From a bacterium (GTDB taxonomy: Bacteria > Bacillota_I > Bacilli_A > RF39 > UBA660), in the NCBI GenBank assembly GCA_029007415.1, contig JAQXHT010000051.1, forward strand, positions 1 through 32,166: a stretch of 32,166 bases of DNA, in the 5' to 3' direction. Shown here one piece after another: positions 11,672 to 32,166 of this stretch. The translations under genes and the position numbers were made by a program. Numbering within the stretch: the first letter of the stretch is position 1; the number at the start of each line of letters is the position of its first letter. The notes under the pieces are model-generated. The model searched no databases. It saw nothing but the letters and a program-made list of their open reading frames with translations, and was not told the DNA's origin.

Positions 11672-12766
11672 TTGAAAAAGTTTTTATTAGTACTTAGTCT
11701 TTTAACTATTATTTTTCCTTTGTATACTAAAGCTAGTGATACTGCTAGAAGTTCTATTGTTATGGATATAGATAGTGGTAGAGTTTTATATGAGAAGAAT
11801 GCGAATGAGAAGAGATTAATTGCTTCTACTACGAAGATTATGACTGCTCTTCTTGCTCTTGAATCTGGTAAATTAAACGAGATGGTAGAATCAAAAGAAG
11901 AGATATTAAAGATGTATGGAACTAGTATTTATCTCAGTCTGCACGAAAAGATGAGATTAGAAGATTTAGTTTATGGACTGTTACTTAGAAGTGGTAATGA
12001 TGCAGCGGTAGTTATTGCTACTTACCTCTCAGGTAGTGAAGAAGCTTTTGTTAAAGAGATGAATAAGAAAGCAAAAGAAATTGGAATGCTTAATACTACT
12101 TTTCAAAATGCTCATGGTTTAGATGAAGAGACACAAAACTATTCTACAGCACATGATATGGCCCTTTTATCTAGCTATGTTTATAAGAATTTTAAAAAAT
12201 ATCGTACAATTACTAAGACTTATAAATATCAGGTGCAAACTAAAGAGAAGAGCTATCTTTGGTATAACCGAAATAAACTTTTAAAGTCTTATGAATATTG
12301 TACTGGTGGAAAAAATGGTTACACTCCTAGTGCTGGTAAAACTTTAGTAACTACTGCTAGTAAGGATAGATTAAATCTAACTGTTGTAACACTAAAAGAT
12401 GGTGATGAATATAACACGCATAAAGAATTATATGAGTTAATGTTTAATAAGTATAAGTCTTATAAGTTAATTGATAAAGATAATTTTAATATTTATGATA
12501 AGAAGTTAAAAGATAAAGTCTATATTAATAAGAGTTTCACTTATCCTCTTACTGAAGAAGAAAAAAATCATATTGAAATAAAAACTAAAGTAGATACTAA
12601 TATTAAAAAAGGAAAGATTGGTTATATTAGTATTAAACTTTACAATAAAGAAATTGGTAACATTAAAATCTATTTAAAAGAAAAAAAGAGCCAGAAGAAA
12701 AAGCTCTTTGGATTTCTAAATGTTAGCAATATAAATTTATATATTTCTAGAAATATCTGCAATTGA
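11672..12766 (+). CDS. D-alanyl-D-alanine carboxypeptidase (PBP5/DacF-like, S11 peptidase)
   Basis: ORF (TTG start) with signal peptide; ASTTKIMTALLALE (SxxK), SGNDAAV (SxN), CTGGKNGYT (KTG-like). Confidence 0.9.
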   Translation: MKKFLLVLSLLTIIFPLYTKASDTARSSIVMDIDSGRVLYEKNANEKRLIASTTKIMTALLALESGKLNEMVESKEEILKMYGTSIYLSLHEKMRLEDLVYGLLLRSGNDAAVVIATYLSGSEEAFVKEMNKKAKEIGMLNTTFQNAHGLDEETQNYSTAHDMALLSSYVYKNFKKYRTITKTYKYQVQTKEKSYLWYNRNKLLKSYEYCTGGKNGYTPSAGKTLVTTASKDRLNLTVVTLKDGDEYNTHKELYELMFNKYKSYKLIDKDNFNIYDKKLKDKVYINKSFTYPLTEEEKNHIEIKTKVDTNIKKGKIGYISIKLYNKEIGNIKIYLKEKKSQKKKLFGFLNVSNINLYISRNICN

Positions 12767-17454: not shown

Positions 17455-17536
17455 CTATTATTTAAAGTTACTTAGATTAATTTCTCTAATCATATTACTA
17501 TCCACTTTATTAGTACTATCAATAATAGATAATAAA
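17455..17536 (+). pseudogene. Decayed copy of a 30-aa hydrophobic peptide ORF (toxin-like copy A)
   Basis: ttaaagttacttagattaatttctctaatcatattactatccactttattagtactatca matches the two intact copies but lacks the MKTKTF start, RBS and promoter. Confidence 0.6.
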
Positions 17537-17641
17537 AAGGCACTCTTCATCAAGATAGAGTGTCACCCAAAATCTTTTTGAAGGAGACATTCACTACCAA
17601 ATAAATGTTCCTATTTTTTTATGTTATGCAAGTTCTCTTGC
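17535..17641 (-). ncRNA. Candidate antisense/antitoxin RNA A (convergent to peptide ORF A)
   Basis: Minus-strand -35 TTGTTA, 17-bp spacer, extended -10 TGCTAATAT (17649-17654); 5' hairpin GCAAG-AGAA-CTTGC; ends in GACACTC..GAGTGCCTTTTTAT terminator. Confidence 0.5.
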
Positions 17642-17728
17642 TACATACATATTAGCACAACACTTATCATTTAACAAGGCATTTTGCTACGAGAAAAGTT
17701 CAAATATTAAAAAGTGTTATCTATTCAA

Positions 17729-17757
17729 TTGGTTAATTATCTTATCTATGTTATTAT
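17729..17757 (+). promoter_or_regulatory. Promoter of peptide ORF B
   Basis: TTGGTT - 17 bp - extended -10 TGTTATTAT. Confidence 0.55.
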
Positions 17758-17789
17758 CTTTAACAGGAACATTTATAGATGAGTGTCAT

Positions 17790-17816
17790 CCTTCTTATAT
17801 AAAACATATAAGGAGG
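17790..17816 (+). promoter_or_regulatory. Shine-Dalgarno-sequestering hairpin, copy B
   Basis: ccttcttatat-aaaac-atataaggagg: 11-bp stem with one G-U, containing the SD of the 17826 ORF. Confidence 0.6.
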
Positions 17817-17825
17817 TGGTGATTT

Positions 17826-17918
17826 ATGAAAACTAAGACTTTTATTCTAAAATTTCTTAGATTAATTTCATTAATCTTACTACTATCCACCTTATTGGTA
17901 CTAGCAGTAAAAAACTAA
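17826..17918 (+). CDS. 30-aa hydrophobic peptide, candidate type I toxin (copy B): MKTKTFILKFLRLISLILLLSTLLVLAVKN
   Basis: ORF absent from the supplied track because of its size; strong SD aaggaggtggtgattt; near-identical peptide repeated at 18209. Confidence 0.65.
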   Translation: MKTKTFILKFLRLISLILLLSTLLVLAVKN

Positions 17919-18025
17919 AACAAAGACACTCTTCATTAAAGTAGAGTGTCAACAACAAACTTTGAAGGAGACATTCACTACCAAATAAATGTTCCTCTTT
18001 TTTATTTTATGCAAATTTATTTGCT
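17919..18025 (-). ncRNA. Candidate antisense/antitoxin RNA B
   Basis: Minus-strand TTGTTA - 17 bp - TGCTAATAT (atatta at 18032-18037); 5' hairpin GCAAA-TAAA-TTTGC; terminates in the hairpin shared with ORF B. Confidence 0.5.
17925..17950. terminator. Shared bidirectional terminator, copy B
   Basis: gacactcttcattaaagtagagtgtc, 8-bp stem. Confidence 0.6.
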
Positions 18026-18111
18026 ACATACATATTAGCACAATACTAACTTATTAACAAGTAATTTTACTACGGAAAAAGTTTAAATATTTAAAAGTAT
18101 TATCTATTTAA

Positions 18112-18140
18112 TTGGTTAATTACTATATCTATGTTATTAT
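18112..18140 (+). promoter_or_regulatory. Promoter of peptide ORF C
   Basis: TTGGTT - 17 bp - extended -10 TGTTATTAT, same as copy B. Confidence 0.55.
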
Positions 18141-18171
18141 CAATAACAGGAACATTTATAGCTGAGTGTCA

Positions 18172-18201
18172 ACCTCCTGTCACAAAAAATAGCAAGGAGG
18201 T
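18172..18201 (+). promoter_or_regulatory. Shine-Dalgarno-sequestering hairpin, copy C
   Basis: acctcct ... aggaggt, 7-bp perfect stem masking the SD; sequence differs from copy B but pairing is preserved. Confidence 0.6.
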
Positions 18202-18208
18202 AGATAGA

Positions 18209-18301
18209 ATGAAAACTAAAACTTTTATTTTAAAGTTACTTAGACTAATTTCACTAATCTTGTTACTATCTACTTTATTAGTATTATCAATAAATAGATA
18301 A
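18209..18301 (+). CDS. 30-aa hydrophobic peptide, candidate type I toxin (copy C): MKTKTFILKLLRLISLILLLSTLLVLSINR
   Basis: ORF with SD aaggaggtagata; paralogous to 17826..17918. Confidence 0.65.
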   Translation: MKTKTFILKLLRLISLILLLSTLLVLSINR

Positions 18302-18407
18302 TAAAAAGGCACTCTTCATTAAAGTAGAGTGTCAACAAAACATTATGAGGTGACATTCACTTCCAAATAAATGTTCCTCTTTTTTATTTTATGCAAATTC
18401 ATTTGCT
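18302..18407 (-). ncRNA. Candidate antisense/antitoxin RNA C
   Basis: Minus-strand TTGTTA - 17 bp - TGCTAATAT (atatta at 18414-18419); 5' hairpin GCAAA-TGAA-TTTGC; shared terminator ggcactcttcattaaagtagagtgtc (18308-18333). Confidence 0.5.
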
Positions 18408-18568
18408 ACATACATATTAGCATAATACTAACTTATTAACAAGTAATTTTACTACGAGAAATACTATAACTTTTTTCTTTATCATTTTAAAATATATTAC
18501 GAAAGAAAGTAATATCACATTTTTCCATTACGTTACTATTTCTAACATATTTTGTATATAATTAAAAG

Positions 18569-26472: not shown

Positions 26473-27600
26473 CTATCTTTTCATTTTTAAATCATTACGA
26501 TAGCAGAAACTACCGCTATCAGCACTTTTTAGAAAGCCATTATAACTTGCTAAGGTTTGTTCTAACTTTTCTGGTTCATGTTTTCTAACGTATTTTACTC
26601 GTTTTTTTATTTTTCGTTTAGTCTTGCCATTTATTAGCATTAATAGTCTTTTATTCTTTAAAACAAAGCGATACCCTAGAAAACAAAAGCCATGATGAAT
26701 TTCTACTATCTGTGTCTTTCTATTAAGTTTTAGTTTTACTTCATCTAATTTCTTTTCTATTTCTTTTAAACAGTATTTAAGATATTCTCTATCTTCATGA
26801 AATAAAATGAAATCATCCATATATCTAACGTAGCATTTTATTCTTAGCTTTTCTTTAATAAAATGATCTAAGTCATTTAAATAATAAACTGCTAATATTT
26901 GACTAGTCATATTACCTATTGGTAGTCCTTTTCCTTTTTGATAAAGTGGTATTGATTCAAGAGACTTAATATGACTTTCGCAATCTCTAATACCTAGTTT
27001 TTTAACTCTTTCAATTTCACTTTCTACTGATTTTTTAATTTCTTCATTAACATAATTATAATTAGTACTAATAATTATTTCTTTTACCATATTAAATATA
27101 CGTTCATCTTTAATAAGCTTAGTTAGCTTATCAAGAAGTATTTCTTGGTCTATTGAATAAAAGTATTTTGATATATCACATTTAAGTACATATATTTTAT
27201 CATGATTTTCCTTCATTTTATTAATGTACTTTTTCACATAATATATTCCTTTACTTGAACCCATAAGTGGTCTTGTAGCTACATTCATTGGTAGTAAAAG
27301 TGGATCAATTAAAGGAAAAAGAAAATAAGTACTAACTAAGTGATTAACTATTTTATCTGGCATTGTTTCACTCATAATCAAACGATATTTCGGCTCTTTA
27401 ATTATAAAGATATGATATTTTTGATGATGATAAGCTTCCTCTTTTAAGGTATTGTAAATTGACATAATATTGCAAGAAAAAAATAGTTCAAATATGAAAA
27501 TCTTATCCTTGTGTTTAGTATTTTTGCGAACGGTATTATAAACATTAGTAAGATTTTCTATCGTAACTACTTCTTCATAACTAAGTGCTTTGCTTTTCAC
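26473..27600 (-). CDS. DGR reverse transcriptase
   Basis: ORF 375 aa; KCDISKYFYSID, KGLPIGNMTSQILAVYYLNDLDHF (DGR-type (I/L)GxxxSQ rather than QGxxxSP), CYVRYMDDFILFHED catalytic motif; adjacent TR/VR with A-specific differences. Confidence 0.96.
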   Translation of the reverse strand: MKSKALSYEEVVTIENLTNVYNTVRKNTKHKDKIFIFELFFSCNIMSIYNTLKEEAYHHQKYHIFIIKEPKYRLIMSETMPDKIVNHLVSTYFLFPLIDPLLLPMNVATRPLMGSSKGIYYVKKYINKMKENHDKIYVLKCDISKYFYSIDQEILLDKLTKLIKDERIFNMVKEIIISTNYNYVNEEIKKSVESEIERVKKLGIRDCESHIKSLESIPLYQKGKGLPIGNMTSQILAVYYLNDLDHFIKEKLRIKCYVRYMDDFILFHEDREYLKYCLKEIEKKLDEVKLKLNRKTQIVEIHHGFCFLGYRFVLKNKRLLMLINGKTKRKIKKRVKYVRKHEPEKLEQTLASYNGFLKSADSGSFCYRNDLKMKR

Positions 27601-27937
27601 TCCTAATCACCCCATAAGAAATTTTTCTGATTTCAATTAAAAAATTACTAACTGACTCGTACTTCTTATGGCTAATAATTTTTTTCTTATAACTAACATG
27701 CATATAATAATCGAGCATAGAAATTTGAATAACTAGTGCTTTTAGATATTTAAGTTTAATTCTATTAGTATCCTCGATTCGGTAAGAAAAAATATTTTCA
27801 ATTATCAAATACATAGTTTTTTCGATATTTTGTTTTAATATCACTTCATTTTTAGGATAGTTAATTAATTGTTTGTTAATATAATCAATCGTTTTTTCAC
27901 TATTAGATAAAAGTCTAAAACTATCATTGGAGTCCAT
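27581..27937 (-). CDS. avd: Avd-like DGR accessory variability determinant (four-helix protein)
   Basis: 118-aa helical basic ORF overlapping the RT start by 20 bp; position and composition. Confidence 0.75.
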   Translation of the reverse strand: MDSNDSFRLLSNSEKTIDYINKQLINYPKNEVILKQNIEKTMYLIIENIFSYRIEDTNRIKLKYLKALVIQISMLDYYMHVSYKKKIISHKKYESVSNFLIEIRKISYGVIRSEKQST

Positions 27938-28331
27938 CGATAAACTCCTTAATTTTATTATAATTTTCAGAACTATTAGAAATTAACATTTCAATTCTTT
28001 TCATTAATAATTCATGGGAACATTTGCTGTAATAACTTTTCTGAGCAATAGCTGATATATCTTTATATAGATTATCATCACTCATATAACTAGTTATTTC
28101 TTCATTTTCTACGATGTAAAAAGAAATATTCTTATCACGTAAATTTTTTGTTACTTTAGTAAGTGCTGCTACTGGGAATCCTAATTTTTCATTATTAATT
28201 TGGTATGAAAAAAGATAATTCATAGTTATAGCATCAAATCCAAAAGTAACATAAAAACTGCCTACTTTTAAGAGAACTATTTCTTCTTGATGTTGTTTTT
28301 TCAACTCTTCATACTTTTCTTTTACTTTCAT
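27924..28331 (-). CDS. MutS-domain-I-like (MSL-type) DGR accessory protein
   Basis: LKKQHQEEIVLLKVGSFYVTFGFDAITMNYLFSYQ...GFPVAALTKVTKNLRDKNISFYIVE resembles the MutS mismatch-binding N-terminal domain; start at 28331 with AGGAGTAAA RBS (track ORF to 28418 is N-extended into TR cassette 1). Confidence 0.7.
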   Translation of the reverse strand: MKVKEKYEELKKQHQEEIVLLKVGSFYVTFGFDAITMNYLFSYQINNEKLGFPVAALTKVTKNLRDKNISFYIVENEEITSYMSDDNLYKDISAIAQKSYYSKCSHELLMKRIEMLISNSSENYNKIKEFIDGLQ

Positions 28332-28350: not shown

Positions 28351-28732
28351 TGCCAAAGATTAATCTTGTTTCCAATCTTTAGATTATGAGTTATATCATT
28401 ACTTCCTCTAGTTACCAACCTTAATCAATAACATACGGTTAGATTAGCAATAATTATACTAATTCGTAGTAGGAATCTGGACGGGCCCCGAAGGAATTCG
28501 TGACGTTGTTCCAATGATTCAGACTGCCTGAAGGATTCACGTTCCAAACGTTCGCATTAGAGTTGTTAGACTCAAAGTTAGACGGAGACAGCGAAGTTCT
28601 AAGCTCTGAATGCAACACAAACCTGAAAGGTCCGTTAGTAGATTAACCTCACTTACTATATTTTTTCAATGTATCAATATTTTCTCAAATAATAATATTA
28701 GCTAAGAAAAGTATACATTATTTTTTCTGGCA
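28351..28732 (-). ncRNA. DGR TR cassette 1 (TR core 28477..28592)
   Basis: TR core reads LSPSNFESNNSNANVWNVNPSGSLNHWNNVTNSFGARP; terminal TATGCCA/TGGCATA; conserved flanks. Confidence 0.9.
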
Positions 28733-29365
28733 TATAGTTTTTAAAGTAGATTTTAGTTAAATTGCAAGAATTACTAATTTACCTATATATGATGTTAGTT
28801 TTATTTTATAGATAAACGGATACTTACATGTCATATGACAGATATTTTTAAGTAAAACTATGCATGACACAAATTATTTTTCACTACTAGCATATTAGTA
28901 AATATGCCTTACTAGCTCCTATGGTATTTAATTATCTTTAGTAGTTAAATTTAACTGTAATAAACAACTATATATATTATTATCAGTCTTTTTCATAATC
29001 CGTACGAGGTGTCATTACCCCTGTTTCTTTCCGTTAGTATCTATTAGTGTCAAATAATAGATATATTACTCCGCTATAAGTTTTGTATTTTGAGTTATTT
29101 TCTTAATTTATATTAGTATTAAAATAATACAAAAATAAATTTCTTTCTATATCTTTTAATAATAGTAAAAAGTATTTTAAAGATTATAGATAAAGTCATT
29201 ACTCAAAACAAAATTACCATATTTTACCATAGATTTCCCCTCATCATCCATAATAATGGTAACATATCGTTTGAGAATTTTCAATATTTATTCTCAAGTA
29301 TGAATATATTTATACAAGAAAAAAAGCAAAAACTTTTTTAATAATTTTTACTTTTGTTATTGTTA

Positions 29366-29740
29366 TGCCAAAGATTAATCTTGTTTCCAATCTTACAGAT
29401 TATGAGTTGGCTCATTACTTCCTCTAGTTATTAACCTTAATCAATAACATACGGTTAGATTAGCAATGATTATACTAATTTGTAGTAGGAATCTGGACGG
29501 GCCCCGAAGGAATTCGTGACGTTGTTTCCGTTATTCAAGCTGCCTGAAGGATTCACGTTCCAAACATTTGCATTAGAGTTGTTTGAATTGAAGTTAGACG
29601 GAGACAGCAAACTTCTAAAAACTAATACTAGAAGGAAAAAACCGTTATTAGACTAACCTTATTTATATTCTTTTAATGTACCAATATTTTCTTGAATAGT
29701 TAACACCAGTCAAAAAAAGTATACATCATATTTCTTGGCA
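29366..29740 (-). ncRNA. DGR TR cassette 2 (TR core 29493..29608)
   Basis: LSPSNFNSNNSNANVWNVNPSGSLNNGNNVTNSFGARP. Confidence 0.9.
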
Positions 29741-29776
29741 TAGTATTTAAAAACTACTTTGTCTTAATTATGGTTA

Positions 29777-30154
29777 TGCCAAAGATTAATCTTGTTTCCA
29801 ATCTTACAGATTATGAGTTATCTCATTACTTCCTCTAGTTACCAACCTTAATCAATAACATACGGTTTAGATTAGCAATAATTGTACTAACTTGTAGTAG
29901 GAATCTGGACGGGCCCCGAAGGAATTCGTGACGTTATTCCAGTCAATCAGACCGCCCGAAGGAAGGACGTTCCAAACGTTCGCATTAGAGTTGTTTGAAT
30001 TGAAGTTAGACGGAGACAGCAAACTTCTAAAAACTAATGCTAGAAAAAGTCTAAAACCGTTATTAGATTAACCTTTATCATTTTCTTTTAATGTACCAAT
30101 ATTTTTTTAAATAATTAGTTTAGCTAAAAAACGTATACATTATTTTTTTTGGCA
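29777..30154 (-). ncRNA. DGR TR cassette 3 (TR core 29905..30020), template of the VR in this window
   Basis: LSPSNFNSNNSNANVWNVLPSGGLIDWNNVTNSFGARP; only TR whose non-A bases all match VR. Confidence 0.96.
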
Positions 30155-30233
30155 TAACATAGGAAAAATAATACTCCTTTATTTTTTTAAATGCAAGCGA
30201 TTTTATATTTTAAAAATAAACAATTATAGCTTG

Positions 30234-30590
30234 TGTCAAAGATTAATCTTGTTTCCAATCTTACAGATTATGAGTTAGCTCATTACTTCCTCTAGTTAGT
30301 AACCTTAATCAATAACATACGGTTTAGATTAGCAATGATTATACTAATTTGTAGTAGGAATCTGGACGGGCCCCGAAGGAATTTGTTACATCACGATTAT
30401 TCAGGCTGCCTGAAGAAAACACGCTCCAAATATCTATTATAGAATAATTAGAATTGAAATAAAACGGAGACAGCAATATCTTTAATGCTTAGAACCTCGC
30501 ATTAGATTAACCTTGTTATTATTGCAATGTACAAATATTTTCTTAGCAATAATTATTAACTGAGAAAAGTATACATTATTTTTTCTGACA
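30234..30590 (-). ncRNA. DGR TR cassette 4 (TR core 30362..30474, 113 nt), most divergent
   Basis: LSPFYFNSNYSIIDIWSVFSSGSLNNRDVTNSFGARP; ends TGTCA/TGACA. Confidence 0.85.
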
Positions 30591-30629
30591 CTTTTGATAG
30601 AAAAATTATATTTTTATTTAAAATTAATA

Positions 30630-31009
30630 TGCCAAAGATTAATCTTGTTTCCAATCTTTTAGATTATGAGTTAGCTCATTACTTCCTCTAGTTATTAACC
30701 TTAATCAATAACATACGGTTTAGATTAGCAATGATTATACTAATTTGTAGTAGGAATCTGGACGGGCCCCGAAGGAATTCTCGACACTACCCCAATGATT
30801 CAACATGCCTGAAGGATTCACGTTCCAAACATTCGCACTAGAGTTATTTGAATTGAAGTTAGACGGAGACAGCGAACTTCTAAAACTAATGCTAGAATGG
30901 ATCAAAACCGCTATTAGATTAACCTTATATTATTTTTTATTATCAATGCACCAATATTCTTACAAATAGTATTATTAGTTATAAGATGTATACATTATTT
31001 TTTCTGGCA
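30630..31009 (-). ncRNA. DGR TR cassette 5 (TR core 30758..30873)
   Basis: LSPSNFNSNNSSANVWNVNPSGMLNHWGSVENSFGARP. Confidence 0.9.
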
Positions 31010-31037
31010 TAAAATAATTTTGATATTTATATAGTAG

Positions 31038-31398
31038 TGCCAAAGATTAATCTTGTTTCCAATCTTACAGATTATGAGTTAGCTCATTACTTCCTCTAGT
31101 TACCAACCTTAATCAATAACATACGGTTAGATTAGCAATGATTATACTAATTTGTAGTAGGAATCTGGACGGGCCCCGAAGGAATTATTGACGTTATTCC
31201 AGTCAAGACTGCCTGAAGGCTGCACCGTCCAAACGTTAGCGTGAGAATTACCTGAGTTGAATTTAGACGGAGACAGTGAAAAAGAAATCCAAGTGAGAGA
31301 ACCGTTTTTAGATTAACCTTTTCTTTATGTTCAATGTACCAATATTTTTTCTGAATAATTAATTTAATCAAAGAAAGTATACATTATTTTTTCTGGCA
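31038..31398 (-). ncRNA. DGR TR cassette 6 (TR core 31165..31277, 113 nt)
   Basis: LSPSKFNSGNSHANVWTVQPSGSLDWNNVNNSFGARP; ends GTGCCA/TGGCAC. Confidence 0.9.
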
Positions 31399-31442
31399 CG
31401 TTTTAAGTAATATAAATTTTTTCAAATATATTTTATAGATGT

Positions 31443-31808
31443 ATGCCAAAGATTAATCTTGTTTCCAATCTTTAGATTATGAGTTAACTCATTACTTCCT
31501 CTAGTTATCAACCTTAATCAATAACATACGGTTAGATTAGCAATGATTATACTAATTTGTAGTAGGAATCTGGACGGGCCCCGAAGGAATTTGCAACATA
31601 CGTCCAATCATTCAGACTGCCCGAAGGATTCACGTTCCAAACGTTCGACTGTGAGTTGTTTGAATCGAAGTTAGACGGAGACAGCGAAAGGACAAACAAA
31701 CAGAAAGAGTCCGTTAGTAGATTAACCTTATTTATATTTATTTAATGCATCAATATTCTTACAAATAATTATATTAGTTGCAAGATGTATACATTACCTT
31801 TTCTGGCA
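31443..31808 (-). ncRNA. DGR TR cassette 7 (TR core 31570..31685)
   Basis: LSPSNFDSNNSQSNVWNVNPSGSLNDWTYVANSFGARP. Confidence 0.9.
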
Positions 31809-31816
31809 TAAATTAA

Positions 31817-31842
31817 AGGCAAAATGATGAGTCATTTTGCCT
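31817..31842 (-). terminator. Terminator of the DGR target gene
   Basis: 11-bp perfect stem aggcaaaatga-tgag-tcattttgcct just past the TAG stop at 31848, separating target gene from TR array. Confidence 0.75.
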
Positions 31843-31847
31843 AGAAA

Positions 31848-32166
31848 CTAACTTATTGAAACAACATATGGATTTAAAGCAGTTCCATCTCCCTTGGTTA
31901 TCAGTGTATCAGCCTTTAGGTTGATAACTGGACGGGCCCCGAAGGAAGACGAGACGTAAATCCAGTCAAGCAGACCGCCCGAAGGAAGGACGTACCAAAC
32001 GTACGCAAGAGAGTAGTATGAAGAGAAGTAAGACGGAGACAGCGTCCAGAAATATTGGCCATTATATAGATAATAATTACTATTTGCTGTATTATATACT
32101 CCTCCAGCCATTGCTACTTCATCGGCTGTGATAAGTGAAACTGGATAGTCTAGTTTGGCACTTGCA
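31848..32166 (-). CDS. DGR target protein, C-terminal part (5' end beyond window)
   Basis: Reading frame stays open past the track start (32111) to the edge: ASAKLDYPVSLITADEVAMAGGVYNTANSNYYLYNGQYFWTLSPSYFSSYYSLAYVWYVLPSGGLLDWIYVSSSFGARPVINLKADTLITKGDGTALNPYVVSIS. Confidence 0.88.
   Translation of the reverse strand, partial: ASAKLDYPVSLITADEVAMAGGVYNTANSNYYLYNGQYFWTLSPSYFSSYYSLAYVWYVLPSGGLLDWIYVSSSFGARPVINLKADTLITKGDGTALNPYVVSIS
31928..32043 (-). repeat. DGR variable repeat (VR)
   Basis: 116 nt; 15 differences from TR3, all at TR adenines. Confidence 0.97.

Follow-up and report, generated by a model that had tools for sequence, protein, structure and literature searches.

A probable chromosomal DGR with seven TR-spacer cassettes and VRs assigned to more than one template

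In a textbook DGR one template sets the scaffold of the target protein, and variation is confined to adenine positions. The DGR of Bordetella phage BPP-1 (mtd, avd, TR, brt) possesses one TR, one VR and a single spacer RNA (Sp) between TR and brt, as well as a hairpin downstream of the VR which is needed for efficient homing (PMC3240598) and whose loss impairs repair but does not abolish it (PMC12875486). The multi-VR DGRs of Treponema denticola serve several target genes per genome, with one TR type per isolate and types differing between strains (PMC4891356). In the part of the MetaCSST survey considered here, 28.6% of the DGRs are multi-VR, about 80% of these having one TR and about 20% more than one, and the Stenotrophomonas SKA14 DGR is listed with two TRs and six VRs; for multi-TR DGRs this part of the survey describes neither an array of spacer-bearing TR cassettes nor template switching of orthologous VRs (PMC6642488). 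DGRs with several TRs are already on record in surveys. An array with exchangeable scaffolds seems to be new as judged from a partial literature search, in which neither a TR array bearing spacers nor the switching of scaffolds was found to be described.

We analysed a stretch of 32,166 nucleotides (“the window”) which constitutes the whole of contig C51. The contig belongs to the MAG of a gut bacterium, an assembly of 1.26 Mb that is fragmented into 125 contigs, with a completeness of 77.4% and a contamination of 3.44%. The right part of the window very probably harbours a chromosomal multi-template DGR, in which one RT/Avd pair and a MutS_I-like protein are served by seven TR-Sp cassettes. 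With BPP-1 the locus shares the combination of RT, Avd, TR and a spacer RNA 3' of the TR, the A-specific changes of the VR and the hairpin 3' of the VR (PMC3240598, PMC12875486). In contrast to the single TR, VR and Sp of the phage element, it comprises seven TR-Sp cassettes with several VR genes and encodes the MutS_I-like protein in addition, and its hairpin is AT-rich with a CTC[ACT] loop where the phage consensus loop is GRNA. As in T. denticola, several target genes are present per genome; unlike there, seven TRs coexist in one genome and its VRs are assigned to more than one of them (PMC4891356). DGRs of canonical type from this genus (G003, G008, G017 C103 and others) have the same RT family and the order VR-hairpin-TR-Sp-Avd-RT, yet just one TR and one VR each.

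In the proposed mechanism each cassette would provide a TR followed by its own structured spacer RNA of about 140 nt. Copying of the RNA of any TR would be error-prone specifically at adenines, and its cDNA product would take the place of a VR situated 3'-terminally in a surface-protein-like gene, so that the adenines would supply random diversity and the non-A bases one of seven scaffolds. The DGR is presumed to be active, with each cassette transcribed and the TRs lacking a partner VR usable. Such a template bank could replace the scaffold as well; from each TR, some 10^12 to 10^16 peptides are reachable.

Organisation of the locus

Along the minus strand the VR gene is followed by the hairpin, the seven TR units, the gene of the MutS_I-like accessory protein, Avd and RT. 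The RT (26473..27600, minus strand) matches Pfam RVT_1 with an E value of 1.5e-18, carries the motifs YMDD and IGNMTSQ and is, thus, an RT of DGR type near the repeats; the RTs of related loci likewise adjoin TR/VR pairs. Avd (accessory variability determinant; 27581..27937, minus strand) is indicated by matches to NCBIfam NF033474 (E 1.4e-9) and Pfam bAvd (E 1.9e-7), both scoring under the curated cut-offs. The accessory protein of about 135 codons (27924..28331, minus strand), whose ORF is also open from a TTG at 28418, contains a region resembling MutS domain I (Pfam PF01624, E 5.2e-8). At the opposite end of the locus, the hairpin (31817..31842, minus strand), which resembles a DGR target site, consists of an 11-bp stem and a CTCA loop. 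It lies 3' of the VR. Of the target gene, the C-terminal 105 codons are present (31848..32165, minus strand) before the gene runs off the contig end. For the target proteins, Pfam gave no match above cut-off and a PDB sequence search no convincing match; for a related target domain, AlphaFold reached a pLDDT of 56, and the model was set aside. A scan of the locus against Rfam matched no family.

The genes neighbouring the DGR are bacterial housekeeping genes, and a search of IMG/VR revealed neither a match to the TR pattern nor a close relative of the RT, the RTs found there being at best 21-25% identical. A phage-borne DGR was therefore rejected in favour of a chromosomal one. Elsewhere in the window, positions 17461-18461 of the plus strand contain a tandem array of units of about 383 nt with short hydrophobic ORFs (17826-17918, MKTKTFILKFLRLISLILLLSTLLVLAVKN; 18209-18301, MKTKTFILKLLRLISLILLLSTLLVLSINR), which resembles tandem type I toxin loci and has no confident match in Rfam.

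The seven TRs, all on the minus strand, are TR1 (PSGSLNHWNNVTNS; 28478..28591), TR2 (PSGSLNNGNNVTNS; 29494..29607), TR3 (PSGGLIDWNNVTNS; 29906..30019), TR4 (SSGSLNNRDVTNS; 30363..30473), which is the most diverged, TR5 (PSGMLNHWGSVENS; 30759..30872), TR6 (PSGSLDWNNVNNS; 31166..31276) and TR7 (PSGSLNDWTYVANS; 31571..31684). Translation reproduces exactly the seven peptide cores listed in an earlier note on this DNA. The statement of that note that the TRs differ mainly in their second half holds as a bias (121/205 differences, summed over a set of equal-length TR pairs; 57/94 if neither base is A), but the differences are not confined to this half. The TRs are 114 or 111 nt long, i.e. they differ in length only in frame, and all read without stops. 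Their adenines mostly occupy codon positions 1 and 2, and a stop is reachable by an A-to-N change in one of 121 A-containing in-frame codons, the two remaining frames giving 14/157 and 35/106. These figures exclude a chance origin of the array, and the avoidance of stops across the TRs implies selection on all seven rather than on TR3 alone.

Downstream of every TR a conserved region of about 140 nt is present, which represents its own Sp. On the minus strand these regions extend over 28351..28489 (TR1), 29366..29505 (TR2), 29777..29917 (TR3), 30234..30374 (TR4), 30630..30770 (TR5), 31038..31177 (TR6) and 31444..31582 (TR7). The covariance model by which they are defined (R1) finds exactly seven matches in the genome, all of them within the array and one per TR. 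In an alignment of 32 regions from this and related genomes, compensatory changes are observed in 10 of the 23 base pairs of the Sp consensus, which thus describes a structured spacer RNA 3' of the TR. In addition, the ends of the units (TATGCCA ... TGGCATA) are complementary in 7/7 cases, and in units 4 and 6 a change on one side is compensated on the other; 61/63 cells are paired compared to 10-33/63 when the ends are slid against each other. This complementarity would fit a closing stem of the RNA or an inverted repeat of the DNA; one whole unit folded as a single strand gave a z of -1.36, which by itself says little. Between the units of TR1 and TR2, a stretch of about 600 nt (28745-29340), wider than the other gaps, shows no recognisable TR and possibly corresponds to a deleted or decayed unit. 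A scan of the window array for promoters and terminators gave no excess over shuffles. Among the relatives, the arrays L108 and L109 have intrinsic terminators between most TR units and TTGACA-like/GATAAT boxes before several of them, which suggests that the units of these arrays may be transcribed separately.

Assignment of VRs to TRs within the genome

For the assignment of VRs, template adenines were masked and the mismatches at non-A positions, which serve as a barcode, were counted. Between the VR of the window (31929..32042, minus strand) and TR3, mismatches affect 0/89 non-A positions and 15/25 A positions (Fisher 1.6e-12), i.e. the two differ almost only at TR adenines as is characteristic of a DGR. 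Since the next best TR reaches 6/81 non-A mismatches, TR3 is, as the earlier note had stated, the only TR with a partner VR in the window. The same comparison bears on the alternative of antigenic variation from silent cassettes, in which sequence of unexpressed units would be transferred to the VR gene through ordinary gene conversion, no reverse transcription being involved. The position of the array beside an expressed gene, the short homologous ends and the gene conversion that clearly occurs among the paralogs would all agree with such a process. Gene conversion, however, does not produce differences that fall on template adenines; moreover, RT and Avd adjoin the array, and its A-containing codons avoid stops. 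The A bias between donor and recipient largely refutes this alternative, whose probability we regard as close to nil.

Remote VRs were searched for by means of the 17-nt 3' end shared by TRs and VRs across the assembly and by a protein search for paralogs of the target gene, which are present on other contigs with identities of 50-84%. The further VRs which had been predicted outside the window were indeed found in the same genome, namely on contigs C88, C77 and C25 and, in genes cut by the contig ends, on C118 and C93; the copy of the TR/VR 3' end on C8 is degenerate. The VR on C88 derives from TR3 (0/89 non-A, 13/25 A mismatches, Fisher 1.2e-10) and the one on C77 from TR1 (2/86 non-A, 12/28 A mismatches, Fisher 3.7e-7), with TR2 as next best template of the latter at 8/81. 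The VR on C25 is nearest to TR3 with 5/89 non-A mismatches; all five fall into its second half, and no TR among the seven accounts for them. None of the assembled copies of the TR 3' end fits as an eighth TR from which this VR could originate, and its changes possibly reflect a missing or lost TR, or drift. The diverged paralogs on C24, C72, C123, C43 and C107 were rejected as VRs of the array, as their best matches still contain 21-39 non-A mismatches; lacking a matching TR, they serve as negative controls. Judged by the barcodes, the VRs of this one genome are thus shown to derive from at least two TRs.

Of the six TRs other than TR3, for which remote targets had been expected, TR1 alone has a partner; for TR2 and TR4 to TR7 the 77%-complete assembly contains no matching VR. 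The earlier note had considered it likely that the TRs serve different remote VRs, yet one TR does not correspond to one remote VR: TR3 serves two or three VRs, TR1 one and five TRs none. Because the MAG breaks at exactly these repeats, the VR counts are to be read as minima. With five of seven TRs lacking a partner in the assembly, some of them may be unused. One could go further and assume that only TR3 and, until recently, TR1 are active, the remaining TRs being tandem duplicates in decay. The partnerless TRs would be in line with this, yet all seven retain their frame, their length modulo 3, the avoidance of stops, a complete Sp and the complementarity of the unit ends, and arrays recur in relatives where different TRs are used. 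We therefore judge such a decay unlikely.

A fragmented and slightly contaminated assembly, whose contigs end inside VR genes, also invites the suspicion that single TRs of several strains have been stitched together and that the additional VRs are strain variants of one gene. In that case one would hardly expect units which differ from end to end and have unique spacers between them to reside on one contig, nor remote VRs to be followed by different downstream genes; furthermore, similar arrays have been assembled independently in other MAGs. An artefact of this kind appears highly improbable to us.

Arrays and template use in related genomes

The usual DGR of the genus has one TR, as does that of G017, which contains the closest RT in the genus (62% identity) and a TR of the same type. 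Multi-TR arrays are found in gut Bacilli MAGs whose RTs belong to one clade and comprise 2-8 TRs each, namely three in L104, four in L107, six in L108, six to seven in L109, three in L111, three in L112 and two in L116; G265 has eight spacer units, some of them on other contigs. On the RT tree, the multi-TR label requires at least five changes within a clade of 18 rows, and the arrays therefore grow and shrink readily, although contig ends truncate some of the loci with a single TR. A scan of the family detected the Sp in 23 of 294 genomes, five of which, besides the genome under study, have more than one copy, two of these five depending on weak matches.

Several peculiarities of the related arrays were noted. 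Contigs C14, C39 and C40 of G265 and contigs of G104 carry TR-spacer cassettes remote from the contig with the RT, either dispersed or at contig ends; such dispersed templates would be unusual. Short spacer-less TR units directly precede another TR in L107 (3168-3610), L111 (8136-8239) and L112 (8129-8232), and the VR of L111 derives from its spacer-less TR, which suggests that two TRs may share one spacer. A target-gene fragment in L109 (1-250) has a VR which continues into a 3' end of TR type, and L287 (430-600), which belongs to the same genome, contains a TR-like unit with a 3' flank of VR type; both are apparent swaps of TR/VR junctions. The local VRs of L111 (7841-7943) and L108 (2131-2243) contain a 1-nt deletion relative to the TR, which shifts the frame of the target gene, unlike the remote copies in G062, which stay open.

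Template switching is seen at L111 and L112, which originate from two different MAGs and have an upstream FeoB-like gene as well as a target gene of about 1000 residues in common. Their TRs a, b and c are arranged in the same order, each being closest to its counterpart (89%, 84% and 77%). The VR of L111 derives from TR-a (1/76 non-A mismatches; next best 13/73), whereas that of L112 derives from TR-c (0/81; next best 13/78). As the orthologous VR bears the barcode of TR-a in one locus and that of TR-c in the other, the template has been switched; at the level of barcodes, orthologous VRs of related species are thus shown to stem from different TRs of arrays that are themselves orthologous. 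The local VR of G062 (0/83 non-A mismatches) and those on its contigs C4 (1/83) and C11 (4/83) derive from the TR T3160, and C30a (3/82) derives from T3531. Over most of 600-900 nt upstream, the genes C11, C30a and C30b are essentially 100% identical to the local gene although their VRs differ; since the gene bodies of C11 and C30a match that of the local gene, it is only the VR that distinguishes them. The local VR of G265 likewise derives from one of the TRs of this genome (1/82). Remote targets of G060 and G061 match no TR, and the match in G063 is weak (6/86).

The suggestion that the additional TRs are swap-in alternatives for the same VR is, hence, borne out in relatives, by L111/L112 and by the identical gene bodies with different barcodes in G062, as opposed to strains of the same species. 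Both observations by which the earlier note had wished its proposal to be judged were made: other VRs exist in the genome, and a VR with the barcode of another TR exists in relatives. The orthologous loci of two species show that a VR can change templates. The array is a natural test of how the RT chooses among competing template RNAs, and the barcodes allow template use to be read directly from metagenomes.

Hairpin and remote VRs

The hairpin is kept beside the local VRs of most related loci examined, with a CTC[ACT] loop and a stem which varies together with its complement. In the genome under study it is present at the VR of the window only and absent near those on C25, C77, C88, C118 and C93. 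The homology of the remote VR genes to the window gene ends near the stop codon. The gene on C77 is identical to the window gene in 118/118 nt of the 5' flank and 69/70 nt of the 3' flank, yet the barcodes of the two VRs differ. Near-identical flanks which diverge near the stop codon favour copying from the local gene, and some of the hairpin-less VRs with such flanks may, therefore, be gene-conversion copies rather than direct targets of the DGR.

Extended to all remote VRs, this leads to a rival account according to which the DGR writes the hairpin-bearing local VR only, from whichever TR is then in use, and the remote VRs arise from the local gene by gene conversion or duplication. Remote barcodes would then be an archive of past local states instead of a wiring of TRs to loci. 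Besides the distribution of the hairpin and the flanks of C77, the genes C11, C30a and C30b of G062, with bodies matching the local gene and different VRs, agree with this account, as does the hairpin requirement for efficient homing in BPP-1 (PMC3240598). It is at odds with the VR on C88, which fits TR3 at 89/89 non-A positions despite flanks in which 20/188 sites deviate from those of the window gene (p = 3e-4), and with C4 of G062, which fits T3160 at 82/83 positions in spite of a 5' flank only about 79% identical to the local gene. Direct writing would account for both cases, and so would a conversion tract of very small length. Furthermore, C11 of G062 carries the hairpin, and its loss in BPP-1 leaves some repair (PMC12875486). 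Purely local writing is, in our estimation, a serious possibility which nevertheless falls somewhat short of even chances.

For the chromosomal multi-template DGR proposed here, both routes, direct writing and gene conversion from the local VR, may operate. More tentatively, the locus can be pictured as a two-layer diversifier, in which the bank of seven templates switches the scaffold together with the random positions at a single hairpin-marked site, and the variants are then gene-converted into a dispersed gene family which forms an archive of earlier versions; we put this forward as a conceivable, though rather doubtful, scheme. The array also offers a natural test of whether the target-site hairpin is required in trans.

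With respect to the size of such gene families, G062 and G063 contain about 25 and about 30 paralogs of the target domain, respectively, in small genomes, most of which match no TR. Finally, the genome under study possesses a second, separate DGR on contig C67 (L081, 9632-12350), whose RT is 42% identical and which comprises one TR (11833-11952) and one VR (12231-12350), the latter in a gene of 513 aa.
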